Shown in pieces: positions 5,480-21,926 of a stretch of 21,970 bases of DNA. Both the position numbers and the translations under genes were made by a program. Within the stretch, counting starts at the first letter, position 1. Each line of letters begins with the position of its first letter. Source of the DNA: a virus; the IMG/VR virus record IMGVR_UViG_3300042509_001635, positions 1 to 21,970 of that record; one strand, 5' to 3'. Below the pieces are notes generated by a model. It ran no database searches. It saw only the letters and a program-made list of their open reading frames with translations, and was not told where the DNA came from.

Positions 5480-7570
5480 TCACATCTGTGGTTGCGGTTG
5501 CTGCGGGGTCAGCGTCTGAGGGGCAAGATCGCCCGTTTGCATGGCCGCGTCGATGGTGCCGTCGATTGTATCTTGTATTTGCTCCGGTGTCATGCCTGCC
5601 TGCATGATGCCGATGCGCTTGGTTTCTGCGTCGTACGCCTTGACCTGAGCCTCGAACTGCTTGGTGCGCATCTCCTGCGCCTCGATCGACTGCTCGACGT
5701 TCTTGAGCGCGCCCTGCATCTGCTGGAGCATCCCGCCCATCTCCTCAATCTGCTTCTCGGCAGCTTGCAGCTCGGGCGACTTGTCGTCGTCGGCCAGGAT
5801 CTTCGGGTCGATTGTCTTGCGCAGCCGCGCGGACATCTCCTGCGCTCCCGGCCAGTCCATGTTTTTGACGAACAGGTCGCCGGCCACCTGCCACAGGGCC
5901 GGGTTGCCTTGCAGCACCTGGCTCATGCTCTCGGCGGCTTCTTGGCGCTTGGTGGCGTAGGCAGGCCCGGTCACGGCCACGACGTCGTACTTGCCGACTG
6001 ACGGGTTGTAGATTTTCTCGATGACGTTGCCGTCCTCGTCCTCGATCTTGCGCACCGGCTCAGGCTGCATAGGGTCGATGCGGGCCATGCTGACCTCGCC
6101 GTCGAGGCCGATGATGCGCGCGATGCGCGCCGTGTCGTAGATTTTGGGGATCAGGTCGATGCACTGGCGCGTGACGTGCCGGATCGCGCGGGCGAGGTTG
6201 TCGATGTAGTGGTAGGTGCCGGTGTCGCCCTGGCGCTCACGCGCGAGGATAGCCTTGCCCGACCGCTCGTTGGACGTAGCGCCGAGGCTGCTGTCGTATT
6301 GCCCCGTGGTCGACTTGATGTCGTCCGACGCCCCCATCTTGGCCTGAATAAGCCCCGTCTGCGCCAACGGAGGCGGCGCGCGCTGCGGCAGTGGCAGCGG
6401 GTTGCCGAGCGCGTCGGTCGCGTCGGCGTTGACCTCCAGATACGGCCAGTTGTTGACGTTGGCCGTCTTCCACTGGCTTTCGTAGCCCTCGAACTGCCCG
6501 CCGTAGCCGATGAACGGGGCCTTGGGGGCCAGCGCCAGCATCTCGGCCTCTTGGCTGGTCCAGTAGTTGTACATCCGCTGCGCGTCCTTGGCGTTGCGGA
6601 TGAGGCCGGAGATGTGCAGTTCGCCGTCGATCTCGAACTCGTTGCCGACGACGCGGATCACAGGGATCCACTTGCCCGGCCAGTCCTGCTCTTGCAGCAC
6701 CTCGAACCCGTTGGTCTTGATCCACTTGATCGTTTTGCGGTCGACCGTGCGGGTGCGCGTCGGCTTGCCGAACAGCAGCCGGGCGACCTTGTCCTCGCGG
6801 CTGCCGTCCATGGCCGTCAGGCCGTCAGGGTAGAGGTTGAGCGTGCCCGGCTCGTGCTTGACGTAGAAATACTCGGCGATGCGCACCGTGTCCTGACTGA
6901 GCCATTGGCTCAGGCTCGGATCGCCGACGCCCTGCTCCTGGATCGACCGCACCGAGGCGTCCGGGAACTGGCGCTCGTACTCATCCTTCGTGACGTCCTG
7001 CGTGATGAAGCACCACTGGGCGTCCGCGCCCGTGGGGTCCTGGATCATCGGGTCCATGTAGACGCTGAACGAGTTGCGGATGCGCCCGATGCGGATGTCC
7101 TGATCGAAGGTGTTGTCGTCGCAGTACTCGGTCAGGAGCCGGATATAGCCCTCGCCGTATGTGACCTGATTGTCACAGGCTGTGTCATAGGCGACATCAG
7201 CGTCCGATGCGTACTCGATGTGGCGCACCATGCCGTTGAAGATCTCGGCCACCTCGATGTCGGCGTAGTCGTCCGACGGGATGACCTTGCCGGTGGGCCG
7301 GTTCTGGCGCTGGTCGTTGGTGACCTGCCTGACGTGCTGTGGCAGCTTGTTGATGGTCAGGCACGGACGCGCGTTGATCGTCATGCCCTGGCTGGAGCCA
7401 CGACTGGAGAGCACGTCGGAGGGCCACTGGTAGTTGTTATCAGCCGAGCCGGCCATGAACCGCAGGTCGTCCAGTTCGGCAGCCCGGCTGTCGCCGTACG
7501 CCGCCACGGCGACGTTCATGCGCGACCGCATGGTGGCCAGCAGGTCGCCCTTGATGTCGGTCTTGGCCAT
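5480..7570 (-). CDS. Portal protein, P22-type
   Basis: This 696-aa protein should form the 12-subunit ring at one head vertex through which the terminase pumps DNA. The N-terminal third contains ARPCLTINKLPQHVRQVTND (about 67-86) followed by a QNRP segment, and later DNQVTYGEGYIRL, MDPMIQDPTGADAQWCFI and GQYDSSLGATSNERSGKAI. These are typical P22-like portal segments, and the length fits the family (about 650-750). The C-terminal part (about 580-660) is Gln/Glu/Met-rich and helical, like the barrel region of P22 portals. It starts at ATG 7570, three bases after the large terminase stop, with only a weak ribosome site, so translational coupling is likely. Confidence 0.93.
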   Translation of the reverse strand: MAKTDIKGDLLATMRSRMNVAVAAYGDSRAAELDDLRFMAGSADNNYQWPSDVLSSRGSSQGMTINARPCLTINKLPQHVRQVTNDQRQNRPTGKVIPSDDYADIEVAEIFNGMVRHIEYASDADVAYDTACDNQVTYGEGYIRLLTEYCDDNTFDQDIRIGRIRNSFSVYMDPMIQDPTGADAQWCFITQDVTKDEYERQFPDASVRSIQEQGVGDPSLSQWLSQDTVRIAEYFYVKHEPGTLNLYPDGLTAMDGSREDKVARLLFGKPTRTRTVDRKTIKWIKTNGFEVLQEQDWPGKWIPVIRVVGNEFEIDGELHISGLIRNAKDAQRMYNYWTSQEAEMLALAPKAPFIGYGGQFEGYESQWKTANVNNWPYLEVNADATDALGNPLPLPQRAPPPLAQTGLIQAKMGASDDIKSTTGQYDSSLGATSNERSGKAILARERQGDTGTYHYIDNLARAIRHVTRQCIDLIPKIYDTARIARIIGLDGEVSMARIDPMQPEPVRKIEDEDGNVIEKIYNPSVGKYDVVAVTGPAYATKRQEAAESMSQVLQGNPALWQVAGDLFVKNMDWPGAQEMSARLRKTIDPKILADDDKSPELQAAEKQIEEMGGMLQQMQGALKNVEQSIEAQEMRTKQFEAQVKAYDAETKRIGIMQAGMTPEQIQDTIDGTIDAAMQTGDLAPQTLTPQQPQPQM

Positions 7571-10063: not shown

Positions 10064-10336
10064 GGCGCGGATGTTACACCAAAAAGTCGAGGAGCCGTCA
10101 ATGTAGGCCGATTTTGCAAAAATAAAAAAATGTTCGTGGGGGGTCCCTAACGCATTCGCCTTTTGCTCGGCCCTCCCCCTCCCCCCTCGCGCGCGCCGGC
10201 GCGGTAGCATCAGCCTAGCATCCTACGTCTGCGAGCATAGCAGCGAGCGAGCTGCAAGCGGAGCGGCCTAGCGTGTGCACATATAGCCTAGCGTTAGGGG
10301 CGCATAGCGTGTGACCGGTCGGGTATGCAATGACAT

Positions 10337-11015: not shown

Positions 11016-11448
11016 CGATTGTCATGGCGATTGTCACGCCGAAATCGCCGTCTGGTCAGGCCACCACAGGGTTTCGCCTCACAAATAGTCATATTGTCAT
11101 CGGGAAATAAGTCTAACTTGCTGCCAGCTACACGGCTAGGATTTATACCCGTATAATATTACTTTTCTAACTAACACTTCTATTCCCATGACAATATGAC
11201 AATCACGCGGCGGCAAACAGCCGCGCTCACTGCCCCACGGCGATTGTCATCCGACCGCGCCGCCATGACAATCGGCGACAATATCAGCCCTCCGCATGAC
11301 AATCCGCGCCAACCGCTCGCCACAATCGCGCCATCATTGAACACAATCCCGCCACAATCGTAAGTGTGCTTTGAAAAGCCACAACCGGCGGATGAAAAGA
11401 TTGTCGCTTAGCAAATATGCGTGACAATCTGAGCGCCTCCCGTTTCCG
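11016..11448. repeat. Cluster of TGACAATC repeats with AT-rich core (candidate origin or operator array)
   Basis: No convincing gene is seen here. The 8-mer TGACAATC or its complement occurs exactly at 11017, 11029, 11197, 11242, 11266, 11297 and 11422. One-base variants lie at 11092, 11189, 11276 and 11399, and ACAATC remnants at about 11322, 11343 and 11354. Some copies are direct (12-bp spacing at 11017/11029, 8-bp at 11189/11197). Others are inverted: ten-base arms 11241-11250 / 11265-11274, and seven-base arms 11399-11405 / 11423-11429. Between 11100 and 11186 the DNA is clearly AT-rich, with TATAAT at 11152. Repeats next to an AT-rich stretch are typical of phage and plasmid origins, but a repressor array is equally possible. 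Confidence 0.65.
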
Positions 11449-11472
11449 GTTAGGCGTAGGCCTACGCCTAAC
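11449..11472. repeat. 24-bp perfect palindrome
   Basis: The half-site GTTAGGCGTAGG (11449-11460) is followed directly by its exact reverse complement. It lies about 38 bases upstream of the -35 of the promoter for the 243-aa gene. A gap-free palindrome of this length suits a dimeric regulator or a cruciform/processing site. Confidence 0.8.
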
Positions 11473-11509: not shown

Positions 11510-11540
11510 TTGACGCATATGTCAAATGTGCTAGTCTAGC
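11510..11540 (+). promoter_or_regulatory. Putative promoter of the 243-aa gene
   Basis: TTGACG (11510-11515) begins the dyad TTGAC-GCATAT-GTCAA. Downstream, GCTAG-T-CTAGC (11530-11540) covers the expected -10 position and fits the alphaproteobacterial GCTANA style. ACCAATCAC (11544-11552) follows at the likely transcript start, then AAGG and ATG 11570. It differs from the TAGCA/TGCTA spacer family. Confidence 0.55.
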
Positions 11541-11569: not shown

Positions 11570-12301
11570 ATGATCATCTATGAAGGTCCCTCTGCAATCG
11601 ACGGCGCGCCTATTGTCGTCATTCTTACCGGCCTAGACACGAAAAGCCGGAATGAAAAAACGGGCGCCATGATCCAATCATGGATTATCCGCGCCGATAT
11701 CGCCCCCCATATCGCGGTCAAGAGCGGCGCAGACGCAAGCATCTGTGGGGACTGCGTCCATCGCCCGGTCAATGGCGGATCCTGCTATGTTAAGACCTTC
11801 CAAGCGCCACTCTCGGTATATAACGCGTACAAGCGCGACCGATACCCGCGCGCGACCCTGGCACAAGCGGCGAGCGCCGTTGCCGGTCGCATCGTTCGTT
11901 TCGGATCCTATGGTGATCCGGTCGCTGCGCCGCTTGCCGTATGGGACGCTCTCGCCAGCACGGCGAGCGGCTGGACCGGGTATACTCACCAATGGAAAAC
12001 GGCGCCCGACGGCTTCAAGCGTCTCACCATGGCGAGCGCCGACAGCTCTGGCGAGGCGGTCCTGGCGCGCGCGACCGGCTGGCGCACGTTCCGGGTCCGC
12101 ACGGCGAGCGAGGCAATCGCGGACAAGCTCGAGATCATTTGCCCTGCTAGTGATGAAGCCGGCAAGAAAACGGATTGCGCCTCTTGCCGGGCATGCATGG
12201 GAACCGCCAGCAAGGCAAAGGCATCTCCCGTCATTATCGCCCACGGCGCGACCGCTCGCCGCTTCACGCTGACGCGTAACGCGTACGCGGTCGCGGCTTA
12301 A
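11570..12301 (+). CDS. Conserved-type Cys-rich protein of unknown function
   Basis: This 243-aa protein begins MIIYEGPSAIDGAPIVVILT and carries two Cys groups: Cys59, Cys62, His64 and Cys72 (ICGDCVHRPVNGGSCYV), and Cys191, Cys203, Cys206 and Cys209 (CPASDEAGKKTDCASCRACM). The two groups could bind one or two metal ions. It resembles uncharacterised proteins found in phages and plasmids; I recall the type but no function. It is the largest rightward early gene and lies directly after the TGACAATC cluster and the 24-bp palindrome. Hence a role in binding that DNA, in replication start or in control is worth considering. That link is only positional. AAGG lies about 11 bases before ATG 11570, and the stop codon begins the hairpin at 12301. 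Confidence 0.75.
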   Translation: MIIYEGPSAIDGAPIVVILTGLDTKSRNEKTGAMIQSWIIRADIAPHIAVKSGADASICGDCVHRPVNGGSCYVKTFQAPLSVYNAYKRDRYPRATLAQAASAVAGRIVRFGSYGDPVAAPLAVWDALASTASGWTGYTHQWKTAPDGFKRLTMASADSSGEAVLARATGWRTFRVRTASEAIADKLEIICPASDEAGKKTDCASCRACMGTASKAKASPVIIAHGATARRFTLTRNAYAVAA

Positions 12302-13739: not shown

Positions 13740-14036
13740 ATGAAACTGATCCTAGACACCTTGGAGCGCGCGCGGCTCGCGGCCTCGCCAGCGGAGGCCC
13801 TTGACGTTGCCGACGCACTTACGGACCTTGAAGCCCTTGCCGATGCCCTAGCCCGTAACGGCTGGACGTTAAGCGACGCCGCCTGCGCGCTGGACGACCT
13901 GAAAGCCCTCCGCGATCATGTCGCGGCGCTGCCGTTCGAGACGACGGACATGGACGACGGGACGACCCTGGTCGAGAGCCTGACGCCTGACGCCTTCCCG
14001 CACTGGCTGGCCACCCTTGAAAGGCTCGCACAATGA
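13740..14036 (+). CDS. Acidic helical protein co-transcribed with an HTH regulator
   Basis: This 98-aa protein has 19 Asp/Glu against 7 Lys/Arg. Its sequence is regular and Leu/Ala/Asp-rich (ALDVADALTDLEALADALAR at about 20-39, and again near 49-58), so it should be mostly amphipathic helix. There is no membrane segment or Cys pair. GGAG lies 9 bases before ATG 13740, and its TGA overlaps the ATG of the HTH gene (ATGA 14033-14036), so the two are made together. Acidic partners of small phage repressors can be antirepressors, antitoxins or DNA mimics; none of these is shown. I do not recognise the family. Confidence 0.65.
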   Translation: MKLILDTLERARLAASPAEALDVADALTDLEALADALARNGWTLSDAACALDDLKALRDHVAALPFETTDMDDGTTLVESLTPDAFPHWLATLERLAQ

Positions 14037-14254
14037 CGATCGTCGCACGGTTCAAACAAGCCACCGGCCTCAGTGACCGCGAGCTGGCCACGCTGTTAGG
14101 CGTCGCCCGCTCGACGGTCCAGGCCGGCCTCGCCGGCAAGCTACGCCTCAAGACGCCGAACGTGACGCGCGCCGCCCTGCTGGCCGTCGTCACCGACCGG
14201 CAACAGGCCCTCGCGCAGCTCGCGTACGACTTGACACCCCAGCAAGATTGCTAG
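14033..14254 (+). CDS. Cro/XRE-like helix-turn-helix DNA-binding protein
   Basis: The 73-aa protein contains a clear HTH: FKQATGLSDRELATLLGVAR leads into STVQAGLAGK (about 7-36), with the recognition helix near residues 24-34. Helices follow to the C-terminus, with the size of a Cro-type repressor. It overlaps the acidic gene by four bases. The last eight codons and stop lie inside promoter P6 (TTGACA at 14231), so its own gene carries a site of the TAGCA/TGCTA family, and P5 upstream carries another. It is therefore a natural candidate to bind these dyads and control both its own operon and the following genes. Binding itself is an inference. Confidence 0.75.
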   Translation: MTIVARFKQATGLSDRELATLLGVARSTVQAGLAGKLRLKTPNVTRAALLAVVTDRQQALAQLAYDLTPQQDC

Positions 14255-17661: not shown

Positions 17662-17695
17662 ATAGGCCCGCGCTGCTCCCTCGGCGCGGGCCTAT
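17662..17695. terminator. Bidirectional terminator between converging blocks
   Basis: ATAGGCCCGCGC (17662-17673) pairs perfectly with GCGCGGGCCTAT (17684-17695) around a 10-base loop, giving a 12-bp stem. On the plus strand it is followed by TTCTT. On the minus strand the primase stop codon (17692-17694) lies inside the stem. It separates the rightward cassette from the leftward replication genes. Confidence 0.85.
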
Positions 17696-19971
17696 TTCTT
17701 GACCAGCACCAGCCCCTCGCGCGCCTCTGGCTCGACCAGACGGCGCAGGTCGCTCTTCGACAGGCCCTTCCCGACGCCAGGGGCGACAAAGATCTGCTTC
17801 TTGGTCGGATAGTCGGCGGATCCGAGCCGCCCCATGTCCTTCCACCCCGCCTCTTTGAGCGCGTGCAGCAGCGCAGGCTGCGGCACCTTCACCCCGTCCG
17901 TCCGCGTTGCGGTGAGACGTTCGCACAGCGCTTGGAACGGCGAACCGATCGCACCGTGGGCGAACTCGCCGACCCGCTCGCGCATCATCTGCACCAGATA
18001 GCTTTCGGCGATCGACATACCGTGCTCGACCAGATTGTCCTTGAAGTCGGTCAGCGGCGGCGCGGCACCAGCGTTGAACGCCCGCACGTCGCGCTGCGAC
18101 AGCCACGCGGCGCACGCCTCGAACCCGCCATCCTTGAACCATGCCCACAGCGCCTGCCCCTCTGCCGGCGTCATGCGCGGCGCGTGGCTCCAGACGCAGC
18201 ACCAGCGCCGGTCCTGCGACGGCAGCGCCAGCGGCACCGGGTCGTTCGAGAAGGCCAGGACGAACATCCGGTTAGCCACCTCGTAGGGGTGTTTGTTCTT
18301 GAGGTTGACCGGCAGCGTCTCTGGCGGCGCGGCGATGATCGGCTTGAGCTTGTTGGCCAGCGCCCGGCGCGTCGAGGCGTCCGGCTCGCGCAGCTCGTTG
18401 ATGAGCATGATCTCGCTCTCAAGATGGTAACCGAACTGCGACTTGAGGCTCTCGTTATCGACCAGCCCACGGTTCCTCATGTGCGGGCCGCACACCGACC
18501 AGATGAACGGTGCCCACATGCTGTCCTTGCCGCAGCCCTCATCGCCGCCGTGCAGCACGGCGTGATTGATCTTGACCGCCGGGTTCTGGAGCTTGTAGGC
18601 CATCACGTCCCACAGGTGCTCCAGCAGCGCCTCGTCCGGCACCAGCAGGCGGCAGTGGTCCAGCCACCGGGTCGGGTCACCACCGGGCACGATCGCGGGC
18701 CTGGCGTCACGCCAGCGGTTCGCCAGCGGGTCGCCGCCGTGCGCCACCAGCACGCCCTCGCCGGCGGCGTACGTCACGCCCGCGACTGACGCCGCGCCCA
18801 TCGCCTGCCGGTTCTCGTCGAAGCAGACCGACGCCTCGACCCTGCGCCCGGAGTGGATGCTATCGCACTTGATGTGCCGGAACAGCGCGTTGAAGGACGC
18901 GCGGCTGATCTCGCGACGGTCCTCCAGATCGAAGAAGCAGTCCTCGATCTGGACGTAGGCGAACCGCTTGTACCACTCCCGCTTCTCGACCCGGCCCAGT
19001 TCCTTGCGGGTGACCTCGGCGATCACGTCGTCCGCGTCCTCGGCAAAGAAGGTGGTCGGCGTCAGCGCCGCCTGCACCCGCTGCATCTGCTCGGCCAGCA
19101 GGTCGTCACGCAGGCCGGGGGCGGTGTTAGGCCCGCCGTTCTGGTGGACCCAGTCGAGGAACACCTGCGACGTCAGCGTCTCACAGTGGCCGTGATGGCA
19201 GCAGAACATCCGGTCCAGCGGACGGTAGCCCGCCTCGACGGTGCCGTCGGAGTGCTTGTCCTTGTTGGGACAGACGATCGGCAGCCAGCCCGAGTGATTG
19301 ACGCGGCCAAGGACCATGCCCTGATCCGACAGCCACTTCAAGACGACGTCGTCGCCCGTGTCGGCCAGCCGCAGCGAGACGTGGGTGGCGGTGTCGGCCT
19401 CGTCGGGCACGACGTCAAGGGCGGTGCAGATTTGGTCCAGGGTGAACTCACGCTCCGGGTGGAACTCAACCAGCCGGGCAGCGAACGCCTCGCGACCGGG
19501 CTTGAGGTTGACCGAGCCGGGGATACGGAAGTTGCGCACCGCGTTGGTCGCGCCGGGGTCGGTGTAGCCTGCCTTGGCGATCGCCTTGATGGCGGCGACG
19601 AACGCCGCCTTGGGCGGCTGGTCGGCAAAAGCGTAGCCCCACTGAAACGAGCCGGGCGACGTCTCCATGATCCACGTCGGCTCCAGCGGCGGGCGCTTGG
19701 ATTTGGTGCCAATATCGTCCAGCATCATGCACAGGATGAACTCGCAGTTGGCCTGCGCGGCGCTGACGCCGGACGTCATGCGGTCGAGGATGAACGAGCC
19801 GGTGTTGAGATAGGCTGCGGTGCCCGGTTTCACGCCCTCTGAAGGCAGGAACGAGGGCCAGGTGTACTTGGGCGAGCCGTCAGCGTGGGTGCCCTTGGCG
19901 GGCTTCTGGTAGACCAGCAGGGCGGTGTCGCCCTCGGGGGCCAGATTGCAAATATACTCCACAAAACTCAT
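17692..19971 (-). CDS. DNA primase-helicase (RepB/PrimPol-like plus D5-like ATPase)
   Basis: This 759-aa protein probably primes and unwinds DNA at the fork. The N-terminal part has MMLDDIGTKS (82-91, likely metal-binding Asp85/Asp86) and RNFRIPGSVNLKPGR (146-160), as in primase-polymerase domains of plasmid and phage replication proteins. The middle (about 234-263) has Cys234 and CCHHGHC, a possible zinc site. The helicase has Walker A GGDEGCGKDS (475-484; note Asp after Lys where Ser/Thr is usual, with Ser next), Walker B-like IMLINELREP (521-530) and FVLAFSNDPVPLALPSQDRRW (570-590, sensor/arginine finger region). ATG 19971 overlaps the polymerase stop by four bases; an upstream in-frame start (20028) lies inside the polymerase gene. 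The 3' end reaches into the terminator. Confidence 0.85.
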   Translation of the reverse strand: MSFVEYICNLAPEGDTALLVYQKPAKGTHADGSPKYTWPSFLPSEGVKPGTAAYLNTGSFILDRMTSGVSAAQANCEFILCMMLDDIGTKSKRPPLEPTWIMETSPGSFQWGYAFADQPPKAAFVAAIKAIAKAGYTDPGATNAVRNFRIPGSVNLKPGREAFAARLVEFHPEREFTLDQICTALDVVPDEADTATHVSLRLADTGDDVVLKWLSDQGMVLGRVNHSGWLPIVCPNKDKHSDGTVEAGYRPLDRMFCCHHGHCETLTSQVFLDWVHQNGGPNTAPGLRDDLLAEQMQRVQAALTPTTFFAEDADDVIAEVTRKELGRVEKREWYKRFAYVQIEDCFFDLEDRREISRASFNALFRHIKCDSIHSGRRVEASVCFDENRQAMGAASVAGVTYAAGEGVLVAHGGDPLANRWRDARPAIVPGGDPTRWLDHCRLLVPDEALLEHLWDVMAYKLQNPAVKINHAVLHGGDEGCGKDSMWAPFIWSVCGPHMRNRGLVDNESLKSQFGYHLESEIMLINELREPDASTRRALANKLKPIIAAPPETLPVNLKNKHPYEVANRMFVLAFSNDPVPLALPSQDRRWCCVWSHAPRMTPAEGQALWAWFKDGGFEACAAWLSQRDVRAFNAGAAPPLTDFKDNLVEHGMSIAESYLVQMMRERVGEFAHGAIGSPFQALCERLTATRTDGVKVPQPALLHALKEAGWKDMGRLGSADYPTKKQIFVAPGVGKGLSKSDLRRLVEPEAREGLVLVKK

Positions 19972-21926
19972 TTCCCATACCTCTCCCGAATGTTGACCTC
20001 TGCCGCAAGCGGTAGCCCTGCCGCCCACGCGGGGGGCGCTACCATTACGGCTTCAAGCTGCGCAGCGGCAGCCTCTACGTCGTCCGCCTCCAGCACGATT
20101 TCGTCATGCACGTGCAGCACGACCTTCTGACCGGCGGCGTCAAGGCGGCGTAGCGCGTCACGCAACAGGTCGTTCGCGACCGCCTGGACGATGTTCTCGC
20201 AGGCCAGCCCGTGCCACAGCCGCGCGCGCGGCCACTCCTTCGCGTCCTGCGCAGGCTTCCACGCCGCCTTGGCATAGGTGATGCCGTCGCGCTCGAAGCG
20301 GGCGTGAGGATAGCACAGCACCCGGCCCGAGGGCAGGGCGTACCACAGGTGTTGGCGATCGTAGAGATACGTCACCCGCCCGGCGGTGAACTCATGCCCC
20401 GGCTGGCGCATGGCGATGGTATAGGCCCGCTCCAGCGCGCTCCACTGCTCGACAGCCCACGGGTTCGCCCGCCGCCACGCCTCGACCATGCGGCGCGACT
20501 GCGCCTCTGGCAGGACGACGCCGTAGACCCGACCCATGGCGTTGAACGCGCCGACCGACCCACCGAACCCGCACGCGAGTTCTTGAACCTTGCCTACCTG
20601 ACGTTGTGCATCGTCGACGTCAGGCACCGCGACGCCGAACGTCGCCGAGGCGTTGACCTTGTAAATGTCCTCGCCCGTGCGGAACAGGTCCAGCTTGGCG
20701 TCGCTGGCGGCGCAGCTCGACAGCCACGGGTTCACCCGCGCCTCGATCGCCGACCAGTCCGCCGTCACCAGCTTGCGTCCCGGTGCCGCCATGAGCGACG
20801 GGCGCAGCATACCCTTGAGCACGTCCGTCACCCGCTTGCCGTAGGTCGGCACGATCTTGTGCCCTCGCACCATGGCGTGACGCACCGCCTCGGGATCCTT
20901 GGCCGTCTTGCGTGCGAAATTGTGAACCTGAGCACCGTAGCTGGACGCCCGACCCGTGGCCGCGCCGCCGGCGAACACGAACGCGCCGCGCACCCGGTGG
21001 TCCTCCTCGTCGGCCAGGTCCGCCATGCGGGCGAACTTGGCGACGCTCGACGCCCACAGGTCGTCGGCGCACTGGACCACGTCGGCCACGTCGGCGGGCA
21101 CCTCGTCGGGGTTCTCCTCGGCCAGCACCAGCAGCGAGGCCCGCACGTTCTTGTCGATCGACCGCTTGGTTTCCTCGCCCTTGGTCACCGTCATCAGGTC
21201 GCGCGCCTGCGGCCCGACCCGTTTCCACACCCAATCCCGCATCCGGGGACTGCGCACGGACGCGACGGCACCCTTGGTGACCGACACGACCAGCGCCTGT
21301 ATCTCCTCCAGCTCGGCAGCGGCGTAGACCTGCGCGGCCTTGGCCAGCGGCACGTCGACCAGCACGCCTGCGTCGTTGATGCGTTCGTTGACGTGGTAGT
21401 CGGCCAGCTCGGTATCGGACAGTTGCCGCAGCCCCTGCGAGATGGCCCGCATCGCGCGGACGTCACGCTCGCAATACTCGACCAGCGCGGTCATCAGGGC
21501 GGCGTCGTCGTTGAAGGTGCCGTCAGGGCGGGGGATGCACAGCGCGCGCACCAGTTGGCTGCCCCGGTGATCCTTGCGCATGGCTGCGCCGGCGAACCGG
21601 CCTGCGTCCTCCAGCGAGCCGGGCGCGCAGTTGGCGCGGGCCTGCGTCGCGGTGCAGTAGAACTGCTCCAGCGCGAAGTCCATTTGCAGGACGTACCAGA
21701 ACACCAGCCGCTCGAACGCGGCGTTGTGCGCGCGGATCTGGCCGGTGTGGTTGCTCACCTCGTCGGGAAACGGCTGGCCGGGCAGCCAAGTCTGCACCTC
21801 GTCGTCGTCGAACGCCCACGACATGCACAGCACGTCGGTCGAGGGGTCACGGGCATAGTTATAGACGCCGTGCGCCTTGAGATCGCAGCGGCTGCGCGTC
21901 TCGAAATCTATCCAGAGTGTCTTCAT
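19968..21926 (-). CDS. Family A DNA polymerase with 3'-5' exonuclease
   Basis: This 652-aa replicative polymerase has an exonuclease domain first: Exo I IDFET (6-10, Asp7/Glu9), Exo II HNAAFE (67-72) and Exo III YCERD (151-155). All residues look active, so it should proofread. The polymerase domain has motif A LVTADWSAIEARV (386-398, Asp390), motif B-like QVGKVQELACGFGGSVGAF (443-461, Lys446) and motif C VVLHVHDEIVLE (602-613, His607/Asp608/Glu609). There is no 5'-3' exonuclease domain, usual for phage polymerases of this type. ATG 21926 directly follows the complement of ACCAATCAC with no Shine-Dalgarno in view. It overlaps the primase gene, forming a replication operon that begins at or beyond the window edge. 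Confidence 0.93.
   Translation of the reverse strand: MKTLWIDFETRSRCDLKAHGVYNYARDPSTDVLCMSWAFDDDEVQTWLPGQPFPDEVSNHTGQIRAHNAAFERLVFWYVLQMDFALEQFYCTATQARANCAPGSLEDAGRFAGAAMRKDHRGSQLVRALCIPRPDGTFNDDAALMTALVEYCERDVRAMRAISQGLRQLSDTELADYHVNERINDAGVLVDVPLAKAAQVYAAAELEEIQALVVSVTKGAVASVRSPRMRDWVWKRVGPQARDLMTVTKGEETKRSIDKNVRASLLVLAEENPDEVPADVADVVQCADDLWASSVAKFARMADLADEEDHRVRGAFVFAGGAATGRASSYGAQVHNFARKTAKDPEAVRHAMVRGHKIVPTYGKRVTDVLKGMLRPSLMAAPGRKLVTADWSAIEARVNPWLSSCAASDAKLDLFRTGEDIYKVNASATFGVAVPDVDDAQRQVGKVQELACGFGGSVGAFNAMGRVYGVVLPEAQSRRMVEAWRRANPWAVEQWSALERAYTIAMRQPGHEFTAGRVTYLYDRQHLWYALPSGRVLCYPHARFERDGITYAKAAWKPAQDAKEWPRARLWHGLACENIVQAVANDLLRDALRRLDAAGQKVVLHVHDEIVLEADDVEAAAAQLEAVMVAPPAWAAGLPLAAEVNIRERYGK

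Follow-up and report, generated by a model that had tools for sequence, protein, structure and literature searches.

A probable iteron-type replication origin in an environmental podovirus-like phage, and the primase-helicase wing that may read it

The window (the whole stretch of DNA analysed, an IMG/VR contig of 21,970 bases) encodes a P22-like portal and coat, TerL, a polymerase of family A and a protein with RepB-primase and DUF5906 domains, as assigned by Pfam and PHROGs. Seven exact copies of TGACAATC lie on both strands inside 413 bp (Table 1), all of them where the first-pass annotation had placed them within 11016-11448; its further claims, that direct repeats stand 8 bp (11189/11197) and 12 bp (11017/11029) apart, that other copies form inverted pairs, and that a single exact copy stands elsewhere in the window, at 7168 inside the portal gene, were borne out as well, the last by a window-wide search that found this copy on the minus strand. 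Three one-base variants and one two-base variant, CGACAATA, accompany the exact copies. Chance does not account for the cluster: 0.54 copies of TGACAATC are expected in the whole window, none of 100 shuffles reached eight, and at least seven copies in 433 bp have a Poisson p of ~3e-18 at the window-wide rate, or ~5e-12 after correction for all 8-mers and places. Rfam and tRNA searches gave no matches.

Table 1 Site cluster and replication genes in the window. Positions are those of the window; aa, amino acids.
Feature	Position	Strand	Remarks
Left outer iterons, two TGACAATC direct repeats 12 bp apart (11017-11024, 11029-11036)	11017..11036	-	Same positions in L009, L010, L013
Left inner pair flanking the AT-rich core, degenerate site (11084-11091) and one-base variant TGACAATA (11092-11099), 8 bp apart	11084..11099	-	
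AT-rich core, candidate unwinding element	11100..11188	.	GC 0.38; GATTTATACCCGTATAATATTA kept in relatives
Right inner pair, one-base variant TGACAATA (from 11189) and exact TGACAATC (from 11197), direct repeats 8 bp apart, inverted relative to the left inner pair	11189..11204	+	
Iteron TGACAATC	11242..11249	-	
Iteron TGACAATC	11266..11273	+	Followed by the degenerate copy CGACAATA at 11275-11282 (+)
Iteron TGACAATC	11297..11304	+	
Iteron, one-base variant CGACAATC	11399..11406	-	
Rightmost iteron TGACAATC	11422..11429	+	
Primase-helicase, 778 aa; candidate initiator that would bind the iterons; wing residues 736, 738, 741 covary with the site	17692..20028	-	Pfam, AF2, Foldseek and VIA matches, covariation
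Family A DNA polymerase; gene overlaps the start of the primase-helicase gene	19968..21926	-	Pfam, PHROGs

The AT-rich stretch noticed in the first pass inside the cluster is real and overlaps the most AT-rich 89 bp of the window (the lowest-GC 89-mer starts at 11081; its GC is 0.36, that of the window 0.63). As expected of an iteron origin, short repeats adjoin an AT-rich element, here and also in relatives. Several other elements were observed in and around the cluster. At 11449-11472, to its right, is a 24-bp perfect palindrome, GTTAGGCGTAGGCCTACGCCTAAC, which persists as a stem in the relatives L009, L010, L013, L096, and L097; similar palindromes occur at other positions in L098 and L122. 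At 11320-11359 CCACAATC is present twice, and relatives have GCCACAATC-like copies; this may be a second element. A promoter-like TTGACG-16-TAGTCT was recognized by eye at 11510-11537, before the gene of a Cys-rich 243-aa protein (the promoter scanner did not list it); early promoter-like sequences in L092, L096, L098, and L122 have a TAGCAA...TGCTA dyad between -35 and -10, possibly an operator for the XRE protein discussed below.

Loci of relatives (designated by L numbers) were retrieved with the primase-helicase and the portal as queries, and the cluster was found at the syntenic place in about a hundred of them, the conservation for which the first-pass annotation had proposed to look. 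A dense short-repeat cluster lies between the early operon and TerS in nearly all relatives carrying this primase-helicase; in near-complete contigs the sites are almost wholly at one place, and the cluster usually occurs once per genome. The close relatives L009 and L010 and the more distant L013 (71% in the 243-aa protein) have sites at matching positions, the degenerate site at 11084-11091 being a perfect GATTGTCA in all three; the sequence left of the cluster is largely different from that of the window, so the site block is probably under selection of its own. Other site sequences found at the syntenic cluster are TGACCTGG, TGACCCA, TGACAATTTGACC, TTGTCCACA, TGACTACA, TTGCCTACA, TTGCCAA, TGTACACA, and TACTAACA. 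Offsets from the AT-rich core are alike in most classes (counted from the start of the core, inner sites stand ~20-60 bp to its left and 42-70 bp to its right, and more sites follow at about +97 to +160), the comparison being ambiguous for the TTGTCCACA class, in which the automatic core choice fell elsewhere. Neighboring sites on the same strand are most often spaced 8, 9, 12 or 11 bp. Some clusters are weak in the most distant relatives. When one mismatch was allowed, GC-rich coding repeats in L093, L096, and L097 overwhelmed the cluster scoring, and exact 8-mers were used afterwards for that reason.

Early operons adjoining the clusters of relatives encode sliding-clamp-like proteins (DNA_pol3_beta_2; L120, 16492-17145; L197, 4492-5145) and small proteins consisting of DnaA domain IV alone (L208, 31423-31719; L120, 14253-14585); these neighbors count towards reading the cluster as an origin. 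The primase-helicase is present in every cluster-bearing relative whose contig extends far enough. Phage DSL-LC05 (L209; OR003940.1) has a TGACCCA/TGACAAT cluster at the syntenic place (~33550-33960) together with an unrelated primase and a family B polymerase; this counts against assigning the sites to the primase-helicase, a proposal that leaves the DSL-LC05 cluster unexplained.

The primase-helicase comprises a RepB-type primase, a DUF5906 / D5-type SF3 helicase and a C-terminal winged helix (aa 673-748). The primase in the same chain is indicated by the RepB_primase Pfam match and by matches of residues 20-216 to RepB' (3h20, Z 11.5) and S-2L PrimPol (6zp9, Z 14.0); the helicase type by DUF5906 and by structural matches to NrS-1, the SaPI5 primase-helicase, AsfvPrimPol, MPXV E5, PriRep1, and AAV Rep, structure comparison also matching this domain to poxvirus D5/E5. 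Two AlphaFold2 models predict the topology H-E-H-H-E-wing-E at 673-748 and put residues 736-742 in the wing of a canonical winged helix, which follows helix 717-726 and is bounded by strands 730-735 and 744-748. The winged helix is conserved except in the wing after GW-D-GR[LIV], where the residues follow the site sequence: GSADY is found with TGACAATC; AS[TSV]EY with TGACC; KSR[DE][FY]D with TTGTCCACA; M[SA]RDY with TGACTA; YSREY with TTGCCTACA; KSREFPS with TGTACACA or TATACACA; QSREF with TACTAACA; and HSREFPT with TGCCCACA, one of the new consistent classes among contigs retrieved later, with about a dozen members.

Pairs in the 80-97% identity band were compared using site labels derived from the DNA (L176, L188, L211, L212, L254, and L262 were labelled by hand). 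Of the different-site pairs (n=497) 99% differ at residue 736, against 0% of the same-site pairs (n=266); for residue 741 the figures are 96% and 5%, and for residue 738 they are 54% and 2%. As the contigs are related and pair counts are not independent, site changes on a tree are the better count: on the tree of the protein without its winged helix 18 site changes were inferred. Of these, 13 fall on a branch where 736 also changes and 13 on one where 741 does; the runner-up column coincides with 8 of the 18. A label-free analysis of k-mer spectra, done to remove the choice in hand-set labels, brought out the same two residues: among 277 columns 736 came first (r 0.79 in close pairs) and 741 second (0.78), the third reaching 0.45; the best columns of other proteins in this analysis, again in close pairs, reached r 0.30 (TerS), 0.36 (TerL), 0.40 (PolA), and 0.40 (portal). 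Second codon positions of 741 and 736 gave r 0.75 and 0.74; third positions around the wing had a median of 0.07 and a maximum of 0.34. Linkage is unlikely, since no such coupling is seen at nearby synonymous positions or in TerS, TerL, PolA, and portal; with third codon positions nearly uncoupled, a transferred DNA block carrying both ends is a poor explanation and selection on the protein is favored. The co-change of site and wing points to the primase-helicase as the reader of the sites, the protein that had also been named in the first pass for a binding assay.

We would put at about even the chance that wing residues 736, 738, and 741 set the iteron bases in an otherwise conserved initiator, with a code that has switched repeatedly and arrived at the same solution several times, changing the identity of the origin while keeping layout and enzyme. 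The pairing of M736 with TGACTA occurs on several separate tree branches. A site-prediction rule, fixed before further contigs were retrieved (seeds L246, L113, and L190; the planned L120 was not used), was correct in 12 of ~20 usable cases, these being previously unused contigs with a cluster and a specific prediction: it was right for L288-L290, L294, L297, L315, L328, L330, L331, L397, L399, and L400, and wrong for about eight (L329, L334, L339, L362, L387, L392, L395, L396). The correct cases keep known 736/738 combinations and nearly all misses do not, an explanation made post hoc; in most misses the 738 residue had not been seen with that 736 before, and for other A736 wings the broad fallback prediction was frequently wrong as well. 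Residue 736 alone is not the full code, and the rule is valid only near the phages used to build it. If the code is true, switching origins could let a phage escape satellites or co-infecting phages that take advantage of its replication.

Covariation indicates functional matching and is silent on the role of the complex. The primase-helicase might accordingly bind the sites chiefly as a repressor or timer of early transcription, or for copy-number control, the true origin lying elsewhere, and the position of the cluster upstream of the first early gene would suit such a role. We give this little credence: most classes have an AT-rich core with mirrored iteron pairs, a helicase-primase is improbable as a dedicated repressor, and P4 alpha and SaPI Rep use the same kind of domain for origin recognition, as described in PMC4234260 and PMC7581432.

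It is likewise quite improbable that the small terminase TerS binds the cluster as a pac or cos site for packaging. The TerS gene is ~0.8 kb away and the cluster always lies close to it, and DSL-LC05 retains the cluster at the syntenic place despite a different replication module; yet the site does not track TerS, the columns of which hardly follow it in close pairs (best r 0.30, as above), and near-identical TerS proteins in L174, L188, and L138 go with different sites. To our knowledge, a symmetric layout around an AT-rich core is atypical of pac or cos, which also counts against packaging.

The third alternative, an operator array through which the phage XRE regulator (73 aa, 14033-14254) controls the early promoter, draws on the promoter-like sequence seen by eye after the cluster and on the presence of XRE in most TGACC-type phages and in the TGACAATC-type phages with contigs that extend over its locus. 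It is very unlikely to hold, as many cluster phages have no XRE match (L100, L120, L188, L190, L148), L120 shares TGACCCA with the XRE-carrying L098 and L122, and the sites are asymmetric and variably spaced. The 243-aa protein (11570-12301), next gene downstream in the window and the nearest candidate binder in the first-pass annotation, can be practically discounted, being absent from many cluster-bearing phages (L092, L093, L096-L098, L122) and present as 70%-identical copies in L011, L012, and L014, which have no TGACAATC upstream. Assigned to phrog_2554 and without a Pfam match, this protein is encoded by many unrelated phages (Mycobacterium, Gordonia, Klebsiella, Caulobacter), frequently close to a genome end; the closest isolate for it, 'Mycobacterium phage jiawei' (L089, OR464703.1; 73%), stands next to a Caulobacter phage, and its host label may deserve a check. 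Two further binders were rejected: a DnaA domain-IV-like protein, found in L100, L101, L103-L106, L120, L121, and MW202483, is absent from the window and from most clusters, and host DnaA would suit TTGTCCACA, which resembles a DnaA box, but not most other site classes.

The stretch 11017-11429 is read as, very probably, the replication origin of a podovirus-like phage, at which the primase-helicase encoded by the phage itself would bind the iterons through its C-terminal winged helix. Where the first-pass annotation had left the choice between an iteron-type origin and a large operator, the origin is well supported by the conserved architecture, the ~100 syntenic clusters and the residue coupling to the primase-helicase, and the operator is less likely. 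Cumulative GC skew, which had been suggested as a check, gave no support for the origin: it peaks at 10143 in the window, but its extremes in seven near-complete relatives are 2.6-15.6 kb away from the cluster. We infer physical binding, ring loading, melting and a start of replication at the cluster in the following form. About ten 8-bp iterons, head to tail 8-12 bp apart and mirrored around a core of ~90 bp, would be bound by the winged helix; the primase-helicase, bound from both sides, would assemble helicase rings and melt the AT-rich core; its N-terminal RepB-type domain would then prime and hand over to the family A polymerase, likely the replicative polymerase. It is rare for the origin of an environmental tailed phage to be identified from its sequence, and here sites and probable reading residues were found together. 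The large natural set of matched site-wing pairs makes initiator-origin specificity directly testable and suggests that origin specificity can change while the replication machinery stays.

Among known systems, the best structural match of the primase-helicase is the primase-polymerase of phage NrS-1 (6k9c; Z 25.4, rmsd 9.3 over 361 residues, 16% identity), the N-terminal half being unmatched. We know of no described iteron origin for NrS-1. P4 alpha joins primase, helicase and an origin-repeat-binding C-terminal winged helix in one protein (PMC4234260, which cites Ziegelin and Lanka 1995 and Yeo 2002), and the protein studied here likewise has a primase, a helicase and a predicted C-terminal winged helix in one chain; its primase is RepB-type, whereas that of P4 is bacterial Toprim-type, and P4 is a satellite, whereas the phage here is a complete tailed one that encodes a family A polymerase itself. 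The P4 origin-binding domain was not among the matches in a sequence search of PDB. In SaPI Rep, the C-terminal domain of a self-loading helicase recognizes short iterons (PMC7581432, citing Ubeda 2007), and the helicase domain here matches the SaPI5 primase-helicase (7ola; Z 16.7, rmsd 4.4 over 293 residues); the SaPI origin lies just downstream of rep, whereas here 6.3 kb, including the early operon, separate the cluster from the 3' end of the primase-helicase gene. The isolated C-terminal domain of the SCCmec Cch2 helicase binds AAGTG iterons in a putative origin (PMC7581432); unlike the present case, that system has only three 5-nt iterons and a separate primase. A self-loading primase-helicase that binds the sites and melts the core, as P4 alpha and SaPI Rep do, is the reading adopted.
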